Shown piece by piece: positions 3,186 to 12,623 of a DNA stretch of 64,000 nt; position 1 is the stretch's first letter; each line of letters opens with the position of its first letter. The stretch spans positions 62,001-126,000 of the forward strand of contig NZ_SMLB01000001.1 of the NCBI RefSeq assembly GCF_004349105.1. Direction: 5' to 3'. This DNA is from Jiangella aurantiaca. Lineage in GTDB: Bacteria > Actinomycetota > Actinomycetes > Jiangellales > Jiangellaceae. A program made the position numbers and the translations under genes. The notes beneath the pieces were generated by a model that was not told the DNA's origin, made no database searches, and saw nothing but the letters and a program-made list of their open reading frames with translations.

Positions 3186-4355
3186 CTAGAAGCTCACGAC
3201 CCCTTTGAGCAGCTGTCTTGCCATGACCATGCGCTGGATCTGGTTGGTGCCCTCGTAGATCTGGGTGATCTTCGCGTCCCGCATCATTCGCTCGACCGGG
3301 TAGTCGCGCGTGTAGCCGTACCCGCCGAACAGCTGCACTGCGTCGGTCGTCACCTGCATGGCGACGTCGGAAGCGAAGCATTTCGCCGCGGCGCCCAAGA
3401 ACCCCAGCTCCGCCTCGTCCCGCTCGGACGCGGCGGCCGCGCGGTAGACCGTCTGGCGGGCCGCCTCGGTCTTCATGGCCATGTCGGCGAGCATGAACTG
3501 GACGCCCTGAAAGTCGGCGATGGGGCGCCCGAACTGCTGGCGCTCCTGCACGTACGCCGTCGCCGCGGCGACCGCGCCGGCGGCGATGCCGACCGCCTGC
3601 GCACCGATGGTCACCCGGGTGTGGTCGAGCGTGCGCAGCGCGATCTTCAGCCCCTGCCCGAGGTCGCCGACCACCCGATCAGAAGGAATCCAGCAGCTGT
3701 CGAACAGCAGCTCGCGGGTGGGCGAACCCTTGATGCCCAGCTTGCGCTCCGGTGCGCCGTACGAGAGCCCTTCGTCGGAGTCCTCGACGACGAAGGCGGT
3801 GATGCCGCGCGACCCCGCGTCGGGGTCGGTGACGGCCATGACGGTGTAGAACTTCGAGACGCCGGCGTTGGTGATCCACGACTTCTGGCCCGACAGCCGC
3901 CAGCCGTCGCCGTCGGGGACGGCGCGGGTCTTCATGGACGCGGTGTCGGAACCGGCCTCGCGCTCGGACAGGCCGTAGGAGAACATCGCCTCGCCGGTGG
4001 CCACCGGCGGCAGGTACCGCTCCTTGACGGAGTCGGACGCGGCCAGCAGCAGCGGCATGGTGCCGAGCTTGTTGACCGCCGGGATCAGCGAGGACGACGC
4101 GCAGGCGCGGGCGACCTCCTCGATGACGATGCAGGTGGCCAGCGCGTCGGCGCCGGCTCCGCCGTACTCGGCCGGGATGTGCGGCGCGTGGAAGTCGGCC
4201 GAGCGGAGGGCGTCGTACGAGGCCTGCGGGAACGAGCTGGTCTCGTCGGCCTCGGCGGCGTGCGGCGCCACCTTGTCGGTGCACAGCTCGCGCACCGCGG
4301 ACCGGATCGCCTCGTGCTCGTCGCTGAGCCGGTACAGGTCGAAGTCGGCATCCAT
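3186..4355 (-). CDS. Acyl-CoA dehydrogenase
   Basis: FAD-dependent alpha,beta-dehydrogenation of acyl-CoA, with electrons passed to ETF. The length of 389 aa is standard. Family signature 1 is [13 protein letters not shown], and signature 2 runs from QLFGGYGY to IYEGT. The Glu in YEGT is residue 368, the position of the catalytic base in short- and medium-chain enzymes. It stands alone between convergent and divergent neighbours. A TAGCAT box lies 6 nt before the ATG, suggesting a leaderless transcript. Chain-length preference cannot be read from sequence, although the architecture resembles the short-chain (butyryl) group. Confidence 0.93.
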
Positions 4356-4361
4356 TCTCCG

Positions 4362-4367
4362 ATGCTA
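4362..4367 (-). promoter_or_regulatory. -10 box of the acyl-CoA dehydrogenase gene
   Basis: TAGCAT on the minus strand ends 6 nt before the start codon, predicting transcription from or near the A of ATG. A possible -35 (TTGCGA) lies 19 nt further upstream. Confidence 0.5.
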
Positions 4368-4469
4368 CTCATCAGTAGGGTCGTTGTCGCAAGAGCGGCA
4401 TAGCGGCCCTGTCCGCCGACTTGTACTGTCGACCCCGACGAACCGGCCACAACGGGTGGGGGAATGATC

Positions 4470-5786
4470 GTGACCATGCGCATCTCCGTCATCGGCAACG
4501 GATACCTGGGTGCCGTCCACGCTGTCGGCATGGCGGAGCTGGGCTACACCGTCGTCGGCATCGACGTCGACGCGGAGAAGGTGGCGGCGCTCGCCCGCGG
4601 CGAGGCGCCGTTCTACGAGCCCGGGCTGGACGAGCTGCTGGCCAAGCACGCCGGCACTGGCCGCCTGACGTTCACCACCGACTTCGCCGCGGCCGCCGGC
4701 GCCGACGTCCACTTCGTCTGCGTCGGCACCCCGCAGCGCCGCGACGGCCTGGCCGCCGACATGCGCTACGTCGAGGCGGCCATCGACTCCCTCGCGCCGC
4801 ACCTCGACAGCGAGTGCCTGGTGGTGGGGAAGTCGACGGTGCCGGTGGGCACCGCCACGGCGCTGGCCGACCGGCTGGCCAAGACCGCACCCGTCGGCGC
4901 CGGTGCCGAGCTGGCGTGGAACCCGGAGTTCCTGCGCGAGGGGTTCGCCGTCGAGGACACCCTGCGCCCCGACCGCCTGGTCTTCGGCGTGACGTCAGGC
5001 GAGGCGGAGCAGAAGCTTCGCAAGGTCTACGCGCAGGCCATCGCCGCCGACACCCCGGTGATCGTCACCGACCTCCCGACCGCGGAGCTGGTGAAGGTCT
5101 CCGCGAACGCGTTCCTCGCCACCAAGATCTCCTTCATCAACGCGATGGCCGAGATCGCTGAGGTGGCCGGCGCCGACGTCACCAAGCTGGCCGACGCCCT
5201 CGGGCACGACGCCCGCATCGGCCGCAAGTTCCTCAACGCCGGCATCGGCTTCGGCGGCGGCTGCCTGCCCAAGGACATCCGCGCGTTCATGGCCCGCGCC
5301 GGCGAGCTGGGCGCGTCGCAGTCACTGGCGTTCCTCGCCGAGATCGACGCCATCAACCTGCGCCGCCGCCAGTACGTCGTCGACCTCGCCCGCCACCTCG
5401 TCGGCGGCAGCGTCGCCGACAAGCGCATCGCGGTGCTCGGCGCGGCGTTCAAGCCGCAGTCCGACGACGTCCGCGACTCGCCCGCGCTGAACATCGCCGG
5501 GCAGCTGCACCTGCAGGGCGTCCGCGTGTCGGTGTACGACCCGAAGGCCATGGACAACGCCCGCAAGGTCTTCCCGACGCTGCGGTACGCCGAGTCCGCC
5601 GTCGAGGCGTGCCGCGACGCCAGCGTCGTCCTGCATCTCACCGAGTGGCAGGAGTTCCGCGAGCTCGACCCCGCCGAGCTGGCCGGCATCGTCGAGACCC
5701 CGGTCGTGGTCGACGGCCGCAACTGCCTCGACGCCGACGCATGGCGGGCGGCCGGCTGGACCTACCGGGGCCTGGGCCGTCCCTGA
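4470..5786 (+). CDS. UDP-glucose 6-dehydrogenase
   Basis: NAD-dependent oxidation of UDP-glucose to UDP-glucuronate in the cytoplasm, a precursor for uronic-acid-containing glycans. The Rossmann motif VIGNGYLG is at the N-terminus, the substrate-domain motif NPEFLREGFAVEDTLRPDR follows, and the catalytic Cys lies in GFGGGCLPKD (Cys265 from this start). The length of 438 aa is typical. GGGGGA at 4458-4463 abuts ATG 4464 but is spaced 6 nt from GTG 4470, so GTG is favoured; ATG 4476 is also possible. A palindrome follows the stop. Confidence 0.93.
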   Translation: MTMRISVIGNGYLGAVHAVGMAELGYTVVGIDVDAEKVAALARGEAPFYEPGLDELLAKHAGTGRLTFTTDFAAAAGADVHFVCVGTPQRRDGLAADMRYVEAAIDSLAPHLDSECLVVGKSTVPVGTATALADRLAKTAPVGAGAELAWNPEFLREGFAVEDTLRPDRLVFGVTSGEAEQKLRKVYAQAIAADTPVIVTDLPTAELVKVSANAFLATKISFINAMAEIAEVAGADVTKLADALGHDARIGRKFLNAGIGFGGGCLPKDIRAFMARAGELGASQSLAFLAEIDAINLRRRQYVVDLARHLVGGSVADKRIAVLGAAFKPQSDDVRDSPALNIAGQLHLQGVRVSVYDPKAMDNARKVFPTLRYAESAVEACRDASVVLHLTEWQEFRELDPAELAGIVETPVVVDGRNCLDADAWRAAGWTYRGLGRP

Positions 5787-7426: not shown

Positions 7427-8695
7427 CTACGGTTGGGCATCGATGACCGAGGAGGGTATATCACTGCCGTTCTGCAGCGCCGACCACAACTCACCGGAGA
7501 GCTCCGGGTCCCAGGTGACGGTGTTGCCGACGTCGCCCAGCGGGACGGTGATGGTGTCGCCGGAGCCGCCGGAGACCGAGCCGATGGCGCGGACGAACGA
7601 GAACATGTCCAACGGGCCGGTGTCCTCGTCGAGCACCAGGGCGTCGCCGCCGGCCAGCGCCGTGCGGGTCAGCTCGATCGGGTTGACCAGGGTACCGGGG
7701 GAGAACGCCTTGTCGGCGATGGCGGAGATCAGCTCGCGCTGCCGCTGCACCCGGCCGATGTCTGAGGTCGGGTCGAAGTGCCGGGCCCGGGCGTAGCCGA
7801 GCGCGTCGGGACCCTGGAGCGTCTGGCAGCCGGCCGGCAGGTCGATGTGCGCCTGCTCGTCCTGGACCGGCTCGTCGAGGCAGATCTCGACGCCACCGAG
7901 GGCATCGACGATGCCGGCGAAGCCGCCGAAGCCGATCTGCACGTAGTCGTCGACGGCGACGCCGGTGGCCGCCTCGATCGTCTCGACCAGCAGCGGCGCG
8001 CCGCCGAACGCGAACGCGGCGTTGATGCGGTTCTCGCCGTGGCCCGGGATGTCGACGACGGAGTCGCGTGGGATGCTGATGAGCGCGTTACGGGCGCCGC
8101 CGCCGGGCACGTGCAGCAGCATGATGGTGTCGGTGCGCTGGCCCTCGACGCTGCCGGTGCCCAGCTCGCTCTGCTCCTCGGCGGAGAGGTCCTCGCGGCT
8201 GTCCGAGCCGACCAGCAGGAACACCCGGCCGTCAGAGACCGCCGAGCCGTGGTCGGACGGGATGGCGTCGACCTTCTCGATACGGCCCCACACGTACCAG
8301 CCGAGCACGCCGAGGGCGACGATGACGATCAGCCAGAACGCCAGGAACCAGCGGAGGAAGCGGCCGAAGCCGGAGCGCCGCTTCTTCGGCCGGCCCGGCG
8401 GCTCCGCGCCCTCGCGGCGACGGCGGGTGGGCGGCGTCGCGGGCGGTGCGCCGGCGCCGTCGGTGTCGGCCGGGCCGTAAGGGTCGGCCGGCATCACGCT
8501 GGTGCCGCCCGGCGCGGCCATCGCCTGCGCCGGCCCGGGTACGGCCTCGTCGTCGCGCGGGCTGTGGGCCACGCCGCCGCGATAGGACACACCCGGGACG
8601 TGGCCGGCCTGGTACGTGGTGACCTTGACGTCAGTCCCCCGTTCTCCGCCGTCCGCCCCGTGCGCCGCCATGCCTGCCTCGCCGTCTGCTCGCAT
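7427..8695 (-). CDS. LytR-CpsA-Psr (LCP) family glycopolymer ligase
   Basis: LCP enzymes move lipid-linked glycopolymers onto peptidoglycan outside the membrane. A disordered, Pro-rich N-terminus with a basic stretch (KKRRSGFGR) is followed by one membrane segment near residues 115-137, then the LCP domain near 157-325. Expected polyphosphate-binding residues are present: RTDTIML, SIPRDS, GENRINAAF, YARARHFD and GRVQRQR. The start is ATG 8695 or GTG 8698. A promoter GTTACA-17 nt-TATGGT ends 8 nt before the ATG, implying a leaderless or nearly leaderless message. The FkbM gene follows. Confidence 0.92.
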   Translation of the reverse strand: MRADGEAGMAAHGADGGERGTDVKVTTYQAGHVPGVSYRGGVAHSPRDDEAVPGPAQAMAAPGGTSVMPADPYGPADTDGAGAPPATPPTRRRREGAEPPGRPKKRRSGFGRFLRWFLAFWLIVIVALGVLGWYVWGRIEKVDAIPSDHGSAVSDGRVFLLVGSDSREDLSAEEQSELGTGSVEGQRTDTIMLLHVPGGGARNALISIPRDSVVDIPGHGENRINAAFAFGGAPLLVETIEAATGVAVDDYVQIGFGGFAGIVDALGGVEICLDEPVQDEQAHIDLPAGCQTLQGPDALGYARARHFDPTSDIGRVQRQRELISAIADKAFSPGTLVNPIELTRTALAGGDALVLDEDTGPLDMFSFVRAIGSVSGGSGDTITVPLGDVGNTVTWDPELSGELWSALQNGSDIPSSVIDAQP

Positions 8696-8748: not shown

Positions 8749-9555
8749 TCAGCCCTGGAGAGCGATGGCGTCACCGGCGCGCAGACCGAACTCGGCCGCC
8801 GCCGAGCCGCCGTTGACGACCAGCTCCAGGAATCCCGGGCCGGAGCTGCCGGTGACCAGCGCGGCCGTGCCGACGGGCACGTCGGAGAGCCGCTCGTGGC
8901 AGGGCACTTTCGACGAACCGACGGCGACCCGGTCGCCCGCGAGAATGCCCAGGTCAGCGGCGGTGCAGGTCAGCTTGCAATTGCCGAAGTTGTCGACCAG
9001 GGCGACGCGGACGCCGTCCGGCCGGTCGGGCGCGGGCAGCTCCACCGGCGTGAACGGCACCGGGCGCTCGTCGAGCACCCACTTCGCCAGCAGTGGCAGG
9101 TACCAGAGGCTGCGGAACTGCGTGCCGGCGAGGTCGGCCGCGTCCGGCTCACCGATGGCGGCCCACTCGGCCGCCGCCAGCACCGTCCGCGCGTCCGTCA
9201 CCGAGACCGACGACACGCCCAGATGACGTCGCACCGGGTCCAGCAGCACCGGGTCGTACGTTGTGAACACCGTGTGCCGGCCGTGCCCGAACCAGCCGAA
9301 CGGCGCGCCGTTGGGCCAGCGGCCGTCCCGGGGCGCCACGTTGACCAGCGTCACCGTCGGGAACCCGTCCTCACCGAGCAGCCGCGTCGACAGCAGCACG
9401 TCCAGCAGCGTCAGCCCGGCGGCCTCCAGCGGCGCCGGGCCGCCGAGCGGCAGCACCACCGGCGGCCGTCCGAACAGCGCCGCCATGCGGGTCGTCAGCC
9501 GGGCCTGCGCGTTGGTGTCCGAACAGTCGGTGAGATAGGTGATCGACGGATACAT
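8749..9555 (-). CDS. SAM hydroxide adenosyltransferase-like protein (DUF62 / chlorinase-fluorinase family)
   Basis: The family hydrolyses S-adenosylmethionine to adenosine and methionine; halide-using relatives exist. The match rests on an N-terminal TD-x-x-x-D motif (YLTDCSDTNAQ), a central TLVNVAPRDG strand, VDNFGNCKLT, and a C-terminal segment ending FLELVVNGGSAAAEFGL followed by a terminal GDAIAL, as in DUF62 proteins. At 268 aa it is typical in size but divergent: usual TDFG is TDCS. ATG 9555 has GAGGGG 4 nt upstream. Upstream lie a terminator, a Met-rich leader ORF and a promoter, so expression is probably attenuated according to methionine supply. Halide use cannot be judged. Confidence 0.72.
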   Translation of the reverse strand: MYPSITYLTDCSDTNAQARLTTRMAALFGRPPVVLPLGGPAPLEAAGLTLLDVLLSTRLLGEDGFPTVTLVNVAPRDGRWPNGAPFGWFGHGRHTVFTTYDPVLLDPVRRHLGVSSVSVTDARTVLAAAEWAAIGEPDAADLAGTQFRSLWYLPLLAKWVLDERPVPFTPVELPAPDRPDGVRVALVDNFGNCKLTCTAADLGILAGDRVAVGSSKVPCHERLSDVPVGTAALVTGSSGPGFLELVVNGGSAAAEFGLRAGDAIALQG

Positions 9556-9596
9556 GGTTCCCCTCGGGGCCGGATGCGGGCACGAGCACGTCACTG

Positions 9597-9632
9597 AAAA
9601 CAAAAATGGGCCCCCGCGCAGTGCGGGAGCCC
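9597..9632 (-). terminator. Rho-independent terminator / attenuator before the SAM hydrolase-like gene
   Basis: On the minus strand a 10-bp stem, GGGCTCCCGC pairing with GCGGGGGCCC around a 5-nt loop (9632-9608), is followed by ATTTTTGTTTT (9607-9597). This is a textbook intrinsic terminator placed 21 nt after the leader-peptide stop codon and 41 nt before the structural gene. Confidence 0.85.
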
Positions 9633-9653
9633 GGTGAGCTGACGGTGGACGCG

Positions 9654-9719
9654 TCAGGCCAGCATCGAACGGCCGCACATGGAGTGCAGCATTCGCATCA
9701 TGGCCTGGCCGTGCGTCAC
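9654..9719 (-). CDS. Methionine-rich leader peptide (21 aa)
   Basis: The minus strand from GTG 9719 to TGA 9654 encodes M-T-H-G-Q-A-M-M-R-M-L-H-S-M-C-G-R-S-M-L-A. Five internal ATG codons in 20 positions is far above background. The GTG lies 7 nt after a TACCGT -10 box, so it would be the first codon of a leaderless transcript. An intrinsic terminator and then a SAM-metabolism gene follow. The arrangement is that of a ribosome-mediated attenuator in which stalling at Met codons would prevent terminator folding. I did not identify the antiterminator pairing. A shorter start at the first internal ATG is possible. Confidence 0.72.
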   Translation of the reverse strand: MTHGQAMMRMLHSMCGRSMLA

Positions 9720-9726
9720 GGCGACG

Positions 9727-9756
9727 ACGGTACGGCGCTGAGTTCCTGGCGGTCAA
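9727..9756 (-). promoter_or_regulatory. Promoter of the leader peptide / SAM hydrolase transcript
   Basis: TTGACC (9756-9751), an 18-nt spacer and TACCGT (9732-9727) on the minus strand form a near-consensus promoter. The -10 box ends 7 nt before GTG 9719, so transcription should begin at the leader start codon. Confidence 0.7.
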
Positions 9757-9767
9757 GCCGCTCGCCT

Positions 9768-9773
9768 TACCCT
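9768..9773 (+). promoter_or_regulatory. -10 box of the thioesterase gene
   Basis: TACCCT ends 6 nt before ATG 9780, and no Shine-Dalgarno sequence is present, so the transcript is probably leaderless. It lies back-to-back with the divergent leader promoter. Confidence 0.45.
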
Positions 9774-9779
9774 GGCGGC

Positions 9780-10292
9780 ATGAGTCCCGAGGGTCGGCCG
9801 ACGTCGGCCGCGCAGACCAGCCTGTCGCGCATCATGACCGCGCTCGACACCAACCTGCTCGGCACGGTGCACGGTGGCGTCATCATGAAGCTTGTCGACG
9901 ACGTCGCCGGCGCGGTGGCGCAGCGGCACGCCGGCGGCCCGGCCGTCACGGCGTCGATGGACGAGATGACGTTCCTCGAGCCGGTGCACGTCGGCAACCT
10001 CGTGCACGCGCACGCGAGGGTGAACTGGACCGGCCGGACGTCGATGGAGGTCGGCGTGCGGGTGGTCGCGGAGCCGTGGAACGAGGTCAAGCCGCCCACT
10101 CCGGTGGCCACGGCCTACCTGGTGTTCGTCGCGCTCGGGCCGGACGGGACGCCGCGCGAGGTGCCGCCGGTGATCCCGGAGACCGACGAGGACCGCCGCC
10201 GGTTCGCCGAGGCGGAGATCCGCCGCACCCACCGGCTCGCCCGCCGCACGGCCATCCTGCGCTCCCGAGAGCGCGGCCACGCCGAGGTCTGA
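9780..10292 (+). CDS. Acyl-CoA thioesterase, hotdog fold
   Basis: Hydrolyses acyl-CoA to free acid and CoA in the cytoplasm. It is 170 aa with one hotdog domain. The HGG motif in NLLGTVHGGVIMKLVDD is the family's helix/strand junction, followed by D-E-M-T-F-L-E-P and AYLVFVALGPDG, resembling YciA/BFIT single-domain enzymes. ATG 9780 is chosen over the upstream in-frame ATG 9606, which lies inside the attenuator hairpin of the opposite strand. A perfect 20-bp palindrome lies 34 nt after the stop. Confidence 0.88.
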   Translation: MSPEGRPTSAAQTSLSRIMTALDTNLLGTVHGGVIMKLVDDVAGAVAQRHAGGPAVTASMDEMTFLEPVHVGNLVHAHARVNWTGRTSMEVGVRVVAEPWNEVKPPTPVATAYLVFVALGPDGTPREVPPVIPETDEDRRRFAEAEIRRTHRLARRTAILRSRERGHAEV

Positions 10293-11054: not shown

Positions 11055-12623
11055 ATGACGACAGCGGCACGGCCGCCGGATCCACGGCGGGCGCGGGCCC
11101 GTCGCGAAGCCATCGCCGCGCTCCGCGCCCAGCGGGCCGAGGCGGCGCGGTTCCGTCGTTCGGTGACGCTCGTCGCGCTGTCCGTCGTCGCTCCCGGCAG
11201 CGCGCAGCTGATCGCCGGCCACCAGAAGACCGGCAGGATCGCGCTCGGCGTCTACGGCGGCCTGGTCGCCGTCCTGCTGATGGTGCTCTGGCTGGTGCCA
11301 CTGCAGGATCTCGCCGGACTCGCCGTCCGGCCCTGGCTGCTGACGACGTTCAAGCTGCTCGCGTTCGGGATCGCGGCCGCGTGGGTCGTGCTGCTGCTGG
11401 ACGCGTGGCGGCTCGGCCACCCGCCCGGCCTGAACCAGAAGCACCGGCTGATCATGATCGGCGCGACGCTCGCGCTGGCCGCGATGGTGTCGACGCCGTT
11501 CGTCGTCGCCGCCCGGTACGCGACGGCCGCGCACGACGCCGTCGTCGAGATGTTCCCGTCCGGCGAGGTCGCGGCGGCCAGCGACGGCCGGCTCAACATC
11601 CTGCTGCTCGGCGTCGACGCCGGTGACGGCCGCGTCGGTGTGCGTCCCGACAGCGTCAACCTGGTCTCCGTCGACGTCCGCACCGGCGAGCCGGCGATGA
11701 TCAGCCTGCCGCGCAACCTGGAGAACGCCCGCTTTCCCGACGGCACCCCGGCCGACGAGGAGTTCCCGCGCGGCTTCTCCGGCGACGGCGACGAGTCCGA
11801 CTACATGCTGAACGCGACGTGGACGTTCGGCGAGGAGAACCCGGAGCTGTTCGAGGGCCCGTCCGGTCCCGGGCCGACGGCGGTCAAGCAGGCCGTCGAG
11901 GGCACCCTCGGCGTGCCGGTGCACTACTACGTCGCCGTCGACCTGCAGGGGTTCCGCGACATCATCGACGCCATCGGCGGCATCACGCTCCGCGTCAACG
12001 AGGAGCTGCCGATCGGCGAGAAGGGCCGCGTCCTCGAGCCCGGCCTGCAGGAGCTCGACGGCTACCACGCGCTCTGGTACGCCCGGTCGCGCGAGGGATC
12101 GTCGGACTACGCCCGCATGGCCCGGCAACGCTGCGTCATCGGCGCGCTGGTCAACCAGGCCGACCCGCAGACCGTGCTGTCGAACTTCATCGAGCTGGCC
12201 GACGCGTCGAAGTCCGTCATCACCACCGACATCCCGCAGCAGGACCTCGCCAACCTCGTCGACCTCGCGTTGAAGGCGAAGGACGAGGAGATCACCTCGC
12301 TGCAGTTCGTGCCGCCGCTCATCGTGCCGGCCGACCCGGACATCGGGCTCATGCACGACGAGGTCGACGCGCTGCTGTCCGGTGACGCGGAGCCGGCGCC
12401 GTCGGAGTCCGCGTCTGACGAGCCCAGCGACGAGCCGTCGGACGAGCCCAGCGACGAGCCGTCCGACGACCCGAGCGACGAGCCGGCCGCGGAGCCGTCC
12501 GAGGAGTCCCGTGACGAACCGGCCGACGAGCCCGCCGACGAGCCCGCCGACGAGCCAACCCAGGACGAGGAGACGGACGAGACGGCGCCGGTCGAGATGT
12601 CGTCGGTCTGCTCCTACGAGTGA
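11055..12623 (+). CDS. LCP family protein with multi-pass N-terminus and acidic tail
   Basis: Predicted to link glycopolymers to peptidoglycan. A basic N-terminus is followed by several membrane segments (about 36-55, 62-84, 98-118, 134-153), unlike the single anchor of most LCP proteins. The LCP domain spans roughly 180-420: LLLGVDAGD, VRPDSVNLVSVD, ISLPRNLENARF, a GGITLRVNEELP strand, LWYARSR and RMARQR. The usual R-T-D-T is R-P-D-S here. The last 70 residues are a DEPS/DEPA low-complexity acidic tail ending VCSYE. Start ATG follows GGGGGAA. Convergent with the surface-protein gene 7 bp away. Confidence 0.88.
   Translation: MTTAARPPDPRRARARREAIAALRAQRAEAARFRRSVTLVALSVVAPGSAQLIAGHQKTGRIALGVYGGLVAVLLMVLWLVPLQDLAGLAVRPWLLTTFKLLAFGIAAAWVVLLLDAWRLGHPPGLNQKHRLIMIGATLALAAMVSTPFVVAARYATAAHDAVVEMFPSGEVAAASDGRLNILLLGVDAGDGRVGVRPDSVNLVSVDVRTGEPAMISLPRNLENARFPDGTPADEEFPRGFSGDGDESDYMLNATWTFGEENPELFEGPSGPGPTAVKQAVEGTLGVPVHYYVAVDLQGFRDIIDAIGGITLRVNEELPIGEKGRVLEPGLQELDGYHALWYARSREGSSDYARMARQRCVIGALVNQADPQTVLSNFIELADASKSVITTDIPQQDLANLVDLALKAKDEEITSLQFVPPLIVPADPDIGLMHDEVDALLSGDAEPAPSESASDEPSDEPSDEPSDEPSDDPSDEPAAEPSEESRDEPADEPADEPADEPTQDEETDETAPVEMSSVCSYE

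Follow-up and report, generated by a model that had tools for sequence, protein, structure and literature searches.

The locus in Jiangella aurantiaca

The minus strand of a 64,000-nucleotide stretch of DNA from Jiangella aurantiaca (the window hereafter) harbours a gene for a divergent DUF62/SAM_HAT protein, which is preceded by a promoter-like sequence, a short open reading frame with several ATG codons and an intrinsic terminator (Table 1). This succession of promoter, GTG-initiated ORF, terminator and gene had been described in the original prediction and is exact to the base. The leader ORF extends over 21 codons from a GTG (9719-9717), located 7 nt after the TACCGT box, to a TGA stop codon (9656-9654), with ATG at codons 7, 8, 10, 14 and 19. 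As ATG constitutes 1.4% of the codons in the long ORFs of the window, five ATG in 20 codons are far above expectation. Equally, on both strands of the 64-kb window the leader is the sole ORF of 8-35 codons in the exact arrangement TAnnnT-N7-RTG. The terminator hairpin of 10 bp, one of them G-U, has a folding energy of -23.3 kcal/mol (z -4.3), and 0 of 200 shuffled sequences were as stable. The DUF62-like gene starts 41 nt past the T-rich tract, with a Shine-Dalgarno-like GAGGGG (9565-9560) ahead of its ATG.

Across from the leader, the ORF 9606-10292 on the plus strand contains a gene of the 4HBT thioesterase family; as this neighbour is divergent, the hairpin in the window is not its end terminator. 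Two genes of the LytR-CpsA-Psr family flank the locus (7430-8680 on the minus and 11055-12623 on the plus strand). The former is found behind the DUF62-like gene in each of the 15 other Jiangella-genus loci examined and, as judged by eye, possesses its own promoter.

Table 1. Positions within the window of the features upstream of and including the DUF62-like gene
Feature	Position	Strand	Basis
Promoter: TTGACC 9756-9751, 18-nt spacer, TACCGT 9732-9727	9727..9756	-	sequence
Leader peptide ORF VTHGQAMMRMLHSMCGRSMLA, probably leaderless, five internal ATG	9654..9719	-	sequence and conserved build
Invariant TGCGAATG: end of Met8, CGA Arg9, ATG Met10 (proposed control codon)	9690..9697	-	leader alignment
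Region 2, putative antiterminator 5' strand: GTGCGG 9678-9673, GTTC 9670-9667	9667..9678	-	folding
Region 3, 5' arm of the terminator plus the first loop bases: GGGC 9632-9629, CCGCAC 9626-9621	9621..9632	-	folding
Intrinsic terminator hairpin, arms 9632-9623 and 9617-9608	9608..9632	-	folding
T-rich tract of the terminator ATTTTTGTTTT	9597..9607	-	sequence
Putatively regulated gene, divergent DUF62/SAM_HAT protein, 268 aa, 807 nt, ATG at 9555, end at 8749	8749..9555	-	Pfam and fold

Conservation of the leader

A protein scan of genome contigs retrieved 63 loci. Named actinobacteria contribute 42 of them, and the other 21 belong to MAGs that are of Patescibacteria type or unplaced. Leader and terminator of the same build, in agreement with the expectation that a short Met-containing ORF and a terminator would recur upstream of orthologues, are found at 41 of the 42 actinobacterial orthologous loci, which comprise the genera Jiangella, Kribbella, Streptomyces, Kitasatospora, Streptacidiphilus, Actinospica and Catellatospora. 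The single miss, L061, lacks TGCGAATG, and its gene match is partial, covering residues 142-264 only. Terminator hairpins equivalent to that of the window occur at all 41 loci, including the Kribbella locus L016. The leader-terminator arrangement of the window is not due to chance. A further set of ten Jiangella-genus loci has the same leader throughout; several of these come from species already counted. A frameshift extends the leader of L050, and this frameshifted locus was left out of the leader alignment A2, which consists of 40 loci and the window.

All 41 leaders share the octamer TGCGAATG, which encodes [M/L]-Arg-Met, with the arginine always specified by CGA, a rare codon that accounts for 2.8-5.9% of the Arg codons in the long ORFs of these loci. 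As the motif was first spotted by eye and TGCGAATG then served to locate the leaders, this invariance is partly by construction, and the fair figure is 41 of 42. The remainder of the leader varies much by clade, as seen in VTHGQAMMRMLHSMCGRSMLA of Jiangella, MQHTATLAMMRMMPPPPEALR of Streptomyces, VTWYAAMRMLSPRCGRTSAA of Kribbella, MTAGFAMMMRMMPRSPEALR of Actinospica and VTSPEPQPSLRMMRPVGRETAGA of Catellatospora. The Met codons around CGA differ equally, reading MMRM, MMMRMM, MMMMRM or MRML, and internal Met codons number from 1 to 5 per leader. Kribbella and Catellatospora have no more than one or two, so that the true invariant is CGA-AUG, not a run of Met codons.

The distance between the TAnnnT box and the start codon is 7 nt in 39 of the 41 loci, with 6 nt in L023 and 8 nt in L018, and this short gap is a sign of a leaderless transcript. 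Upstream, TTGACC was recognized by eye in four of the five other Jiangella loci and in nine of the ten further Jiangella-genus loci. The stretch from the start codon to the codon preceding CGA measures 18, 21, 24, 27 or 30 nt, five distances that all preserve the frame. With any frame allowed, an in-frame start behind the -10 box was present in 41 of 41 leaders, with an out-of-frame candidate in addition in L004. This keeping of the frame provides good evidence that the ORF is translated up to the Met codons.

Association of leader and gene

Leader and DUF62-like gene are linked exclusively. A covariance model built from 41 leaders gave 11 matches at E <= 0.01 in 295 Streptomyces-type genomes, a search with stricter filters in which weak matches are lost. 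Five strong matches (E < 1e-26) all precede a DUF62-like gene, and the loci of the six weak matches (E 0.005-0.009) contain neither QFRS nor DNFGNC; at least L113 and L114 among the latter resemble ordinary terminators, and L110 does hold TGCGAATG. Eight gene-bearing genomes have one strong leader match each (E <= 1.6e-9), with all others at E 0.097 or worse, and in the one gene-less Jiangella-genus genome among the nine chosen the leader match was no better than E 0.21. The designations of the searched genomes as Streptomyces-type or Jiangella-genus derive from matching named loci. A general element of a Met regulon was rejected, as a second strong leader copy is absent from the eight gene-bearing genomes. 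TGCGAATG is also missing upstream of all 21 Patescibacteria-type orthologues, where 400 nt (173 nt in L042) were searched, and likewise in 28 of the 30 loci that hold other DUF62-type genes.

The full-length gene family was found in one of 396 genomes of a phylum-wide sample, the one of the window itself, with 44 other genomes matching only from profile position 139 or later. In a class-wide sample, the gene is present in 12 of 393 genomes, 11 of these from the genus of the window, in which 11 of 12 genomes carry it. A plasmid or phage origin was considered and rejected upon no tblastn match in the plasmid or phage collection.

Folding of the leader RNA

Region 3 can pair with either region 2 or region 4. 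In RNA left free by a ribosome that stalls on Met10, with the AUG after CGA in its A site, the Jiangella leader would pair GUGCGG with CCGCAC; the corresponding predicted pairs are CCGGAGG with CCUCCGG in Streptomyces and Actinospica and UCGGGA with UCCCGA in Catellatospora, while the Kribbella helix is longer and interrupted, becoming 9 bp in L016, where the 5' arm reads CCTCCG as compared to CCCCCG in most other Kribbella and a terminator G-C pair turns into G-U. Stall folds are represented by 17 leaders, and the pair count covers all 41 of A2: before the 3' arm of the terminator is made, at least five region 2-3 pairs form in 41 of 41 leaders, a count taken without shuffle control. Read by hand in four clades, region 2 lies about 14-17 nt downstream of the AUG following CGA, with the lower bound of this spacing set by folding windows that began 13 nt past the AUG.

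When the 3' arm has been made as well, the stall-freed RNA of each of the 41 leaders retains the terminator in its minimum-energy fold, so that the antiterminator could win only kinetically. The region 2-3 duplex of the window has an energy of -15.5 kcal/mol, with 429 of 2000 shuffles as good. Among 23 chosen representatives in eight groups, a cross-group permutation of duplex energies was as good as the true pairing in 1134 of 40320 cases; shuffling of single leaders, with their GC-rich RNA, gave values at or under 5% in 7 of 23, including 0 of 8 from Jiangella. A pair flanking GUGCGG-CCGCAC forms in four of nine Jiangella leaders as counted by eye, approximately the level of chance, and covariation proof of the antiterminator was not reached in the duplex test of 23 leaders. 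An antiterminator, which the original prediction had proposed to look for by folding, is foldable in 41 of 41 leaders with the ribosome at a Met codon, but the pairing statistics are modest; we consider it no more than likely.

The gene product

In the window protein, Pfam recognizes only the C-terminal SAM_HAT domain (PF20257, E 1.2e-11), while the predicted structure (pLDDT 90) has the DUF62 fold end to end with N- and C-terminal domains. At E <= 0.001, Foldseek gave 29 hits, all of them entries of the DUF62 superfamily, hydrolases as well as chlorinases, and structure comparison gave Z 20.4 to 2zbv, with the first entry outside of the superfamily at Z 6.7. A canonical PF01887 gene is present elsewhere in the J. 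aurantiaca genome. Protein alignment A1 (44 of the 64 available sequences, from actinobacteria and Patescibacteria-type MAGs) delineates a clade of its own common to both, with D10, R19, R23, D52, N72, R76, N82, Q146-F-R-S149 and D188-N-F-G-N-C-K194 among the invariant positions. Compared with eight canonical DUF62 proteins, taken from 8 of 30 loci, DPGVG is replaced by APRxG and F[H/D/A]GRD by QFRS.

The water-activating His-Arg-Asp triad, for which we take the respective residues of PH0463, is not conserved in the clade: Ala74, itself invariant, replaces the Asp of DPGVG, and all 44 aligned sequences read QFRS in the FHGRD segment. At the His position, some canonical actinobacterial proteins also carry D or A. 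The original proposal that the gene raises SAM turnover to recover methionine requires a SAM hydrolase; as the triad is not conserved, hydrolysis of SAM to methionine must not be assumed. According to a review, the triad occurs only in DUF62 hydrolases, and halogenases are without it (PMC10491745). The segment of fluorinase Ser158, which is reported as a residue of the fluoride site in PMC3999930, corresponds in the clade to F147-R148-S149, where two alignments disagree by one residue. The clade protein may bind SAM; by alignment, its invariant arginines Arg76 and Arg148 would lie in the pocket.

Methionine as the proposed signal and competing explanations

Two elements characteristic of an attenuator are found in combination, a seemingly translatable leader ORF with Met codons (ORF and frame at 41 of 42 loci) and an intrinsic terminator between leader and gene (window and 41 loci). 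We favour, as the probable reading, a ribosome-mediated transcription attenuator that senses charged tRNA-Met from a leaderless leader in front of a divergent DUF62 gene, for which we infer transcription start, stalling, antitermination and methionine as the signal. Transcription would begin at or beside the GTG, so that the mRNA would offer its very 5' end as the loading site for the ribosome. With ample Met-tRNA, the ribosome would reach the stop codon and cover region 2, so that the region 3-4 terminator forms and little read-through occurs. If Met-tRNA is short, the ribosome would wait at the Met codons that flank CGA, in particular at the invariant AUG after CGA, leaving region 2 free to pair with region 3 ahead of the synthesis of region 4, and RNA polymerase would continue into the divergent DUF62 gene.

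Methionine would be the natural reading of the AUG codons flanking CGA and of some neighbours, as metK and an amino-acid ABC transporter suggest a relation to sulphur amino acids. In Catellatospora tritici (L018), metK (3509-4681) is located directly downstream of the DUF62-like gene; there are two metK copies in this genome, and the second copy is not special, since two of four other gene-bearing genomes also have two. The amino-acid ABC transporter occurs near the gene in Streptomyces, Kitasatospora, Streptacidiphilus and Actinospica; its binding protein is encoded at 23 of 24 loci, and the L019 permease scores best with a cystine permease model, though below cut-off. In the Jiangella and Kribbella loci inspected, neither metK nor the amino-acid ABC transporter was a partner, and the 14 of 21 Patescibacteria loci inspected displayed no repeated gene partner. 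In one of these MAGs, the Parcubacteria L060, a methionyl-tRNA synthetase gene (3326-4798) lies directly downstream of the orthologue.

A separate short ORF ending in RCA(A/G)DLC(R/C/S) is situated between the DUF62-like gene and the ABC transporter in 16 of 23 loci, which makes a shared operon of the two in Streptomyces doubtful. In L019, this second short ORF (3393-3479) ends in LVRRRHVDNVRCAADLCR, with likewise a second ORF in 15 other Streptomycetaceae loci, and reaches 13.4 of the 27 bits required by the NCBIfam model 'putative leader peptide' NF042934, below cut-off. The Streptomycetaceae loci may thus hold two leader peptides in a row.

The one or two internal Met codons of the Kribbella and Catellatospora leaders are thin for a Met sensor, and CGA is as invariant as AUG, yet the attenuator model has no need of CGA. 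A rival reading is a sensor of translation stress or of the nascent peptide, which would use the same switch: [M/L]-R-M or the slow CGA would arrest the ribosome together with a ligand or an antibiotic, and Met-tRNA would not be the signal. That the invariant part is TGCGAATG including the rare CGA, and not a Met run, is consistent with such an arrest, as are the patchy occurrence of the gene in the class-wide sample, often displayed by resistance genes, and the antibiotic-sensing uORF reported for E. coli topAI (PMC12121999). With the number of AUG varying by clade on both sides of CGA, which suits a tRNA sensor better, and with some of the neighbours metabolic, we consider an arrest sensor unlikely, though credible.

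We judge it highly unlikely that the terminator only acts as a constitutive brake or stops transcription arriving from upstream, with the ORF a by-product of a leaderless promoter. In the three Kribbella loci examined, a same-strand gene ends 15-20 nt ahead of the leader, so near that the hairpin could end that upstream transcript, and even post-stall the terminator is the minimum-energy fold in all 41 leaders; the divergent orientation of the gene on the other side in the window and the conservation of frame and codons across genera argue against it. A metabolite-binding riboswitch overlapping the leader ORF, for which eight bases invariant at the nucleotide level might speak, is barely credible: the reading frame is kept, and the cross-clade RNAalifold consensus has only six pairs, located in the terminator. 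A known Rfam RNA was equally rejected, with no family at the gathering threshold in the window and, in four orthologous loci, a single match up to E 1 (E 0.42) far under the gathering score.

In a further extension, the clade could represent a new SAM-adenosyl-transferring enzyme, neither hydrolase nor halogenase, whose pocket with Arg76 and Arg148 would take another anion as nucleophile. Patescibacteria possess it without the leader element, and a few actinobacteria would make it only under methionine shortage, with the stall set by CGA-AUG, in which a rare and slow codon precedes the sensing one; as a whole, this scenario is a decidedly long shot. The reason why cells hydrolyse SAM is called unknown in PMC12120602. 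A DUF62-fold gene under seeming methionine control offers a handle to predict when the protein is wanted. Furthermore, the element may provide Streptomyces with a short and portable sensor of methionyl-tRNA, and its invariant rare codon poses the question how the speed of a codon is tuned to antitermination when the leader is leaderless.

Comparison with known systems

The original prediction had considered a leaderless leader peptide unusual, which it is not, as leaderless leader peptides have been reported for other Streptomyces genes, for leu, trp and ilv in S. lividans among them (PMC8079986). In the same source, the leader peptide metL, MSTTSDRTPATEATTTPGARCMCRRMCAF, is described upstream of metNIQ in Streptomyces lividans TK24. 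Like the window leader, metL is leaderless, Met-containing, actinobacterial and upstream of a methionine-related gene, but peptide and target are different and the authors found no typical terminator, whereas the window leader has a strong terminator and the invariant CGA-AUG.

A survey from 2005 observed no conserved RNA regulatory structure upstream of actinobacterial methionine operons (PMC1262725). The Streptomyces trp and leuS attenuators presented there have in common with the window a leader with regulatory codons, an antiterminator, a GC-rich terminator and a U tract; unlike for these attenuators, the target in the window is no known biosynthetic enzyme or tRNA synthetase. The survey also recounts that mutation of candidate leader codons of S. 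coelicolor ilvB left regulation unaffected, a case which serves as a warning for leader predictions like the present one and counts against it. The literature searched, which covered papers outside subscription, yielded no account of a leader in front of a DUF62 gene.

The (R,S)-SAM hydrolase StDUF62, the fluorinase and the chlorinase, as presented in PMC10491745 and PMC12120602, share with the clade the full-length fold and the C-terminal VDxFGN. Unlike these enzymes, the clade has APRxG and QFRS, a triad that is not conserved, and C193-K194 after VDNFGN. The locus combines a putative attenuator leader, marked by an unusual invariant codon pair, with a gene from an uncharacterised enzyme clade.
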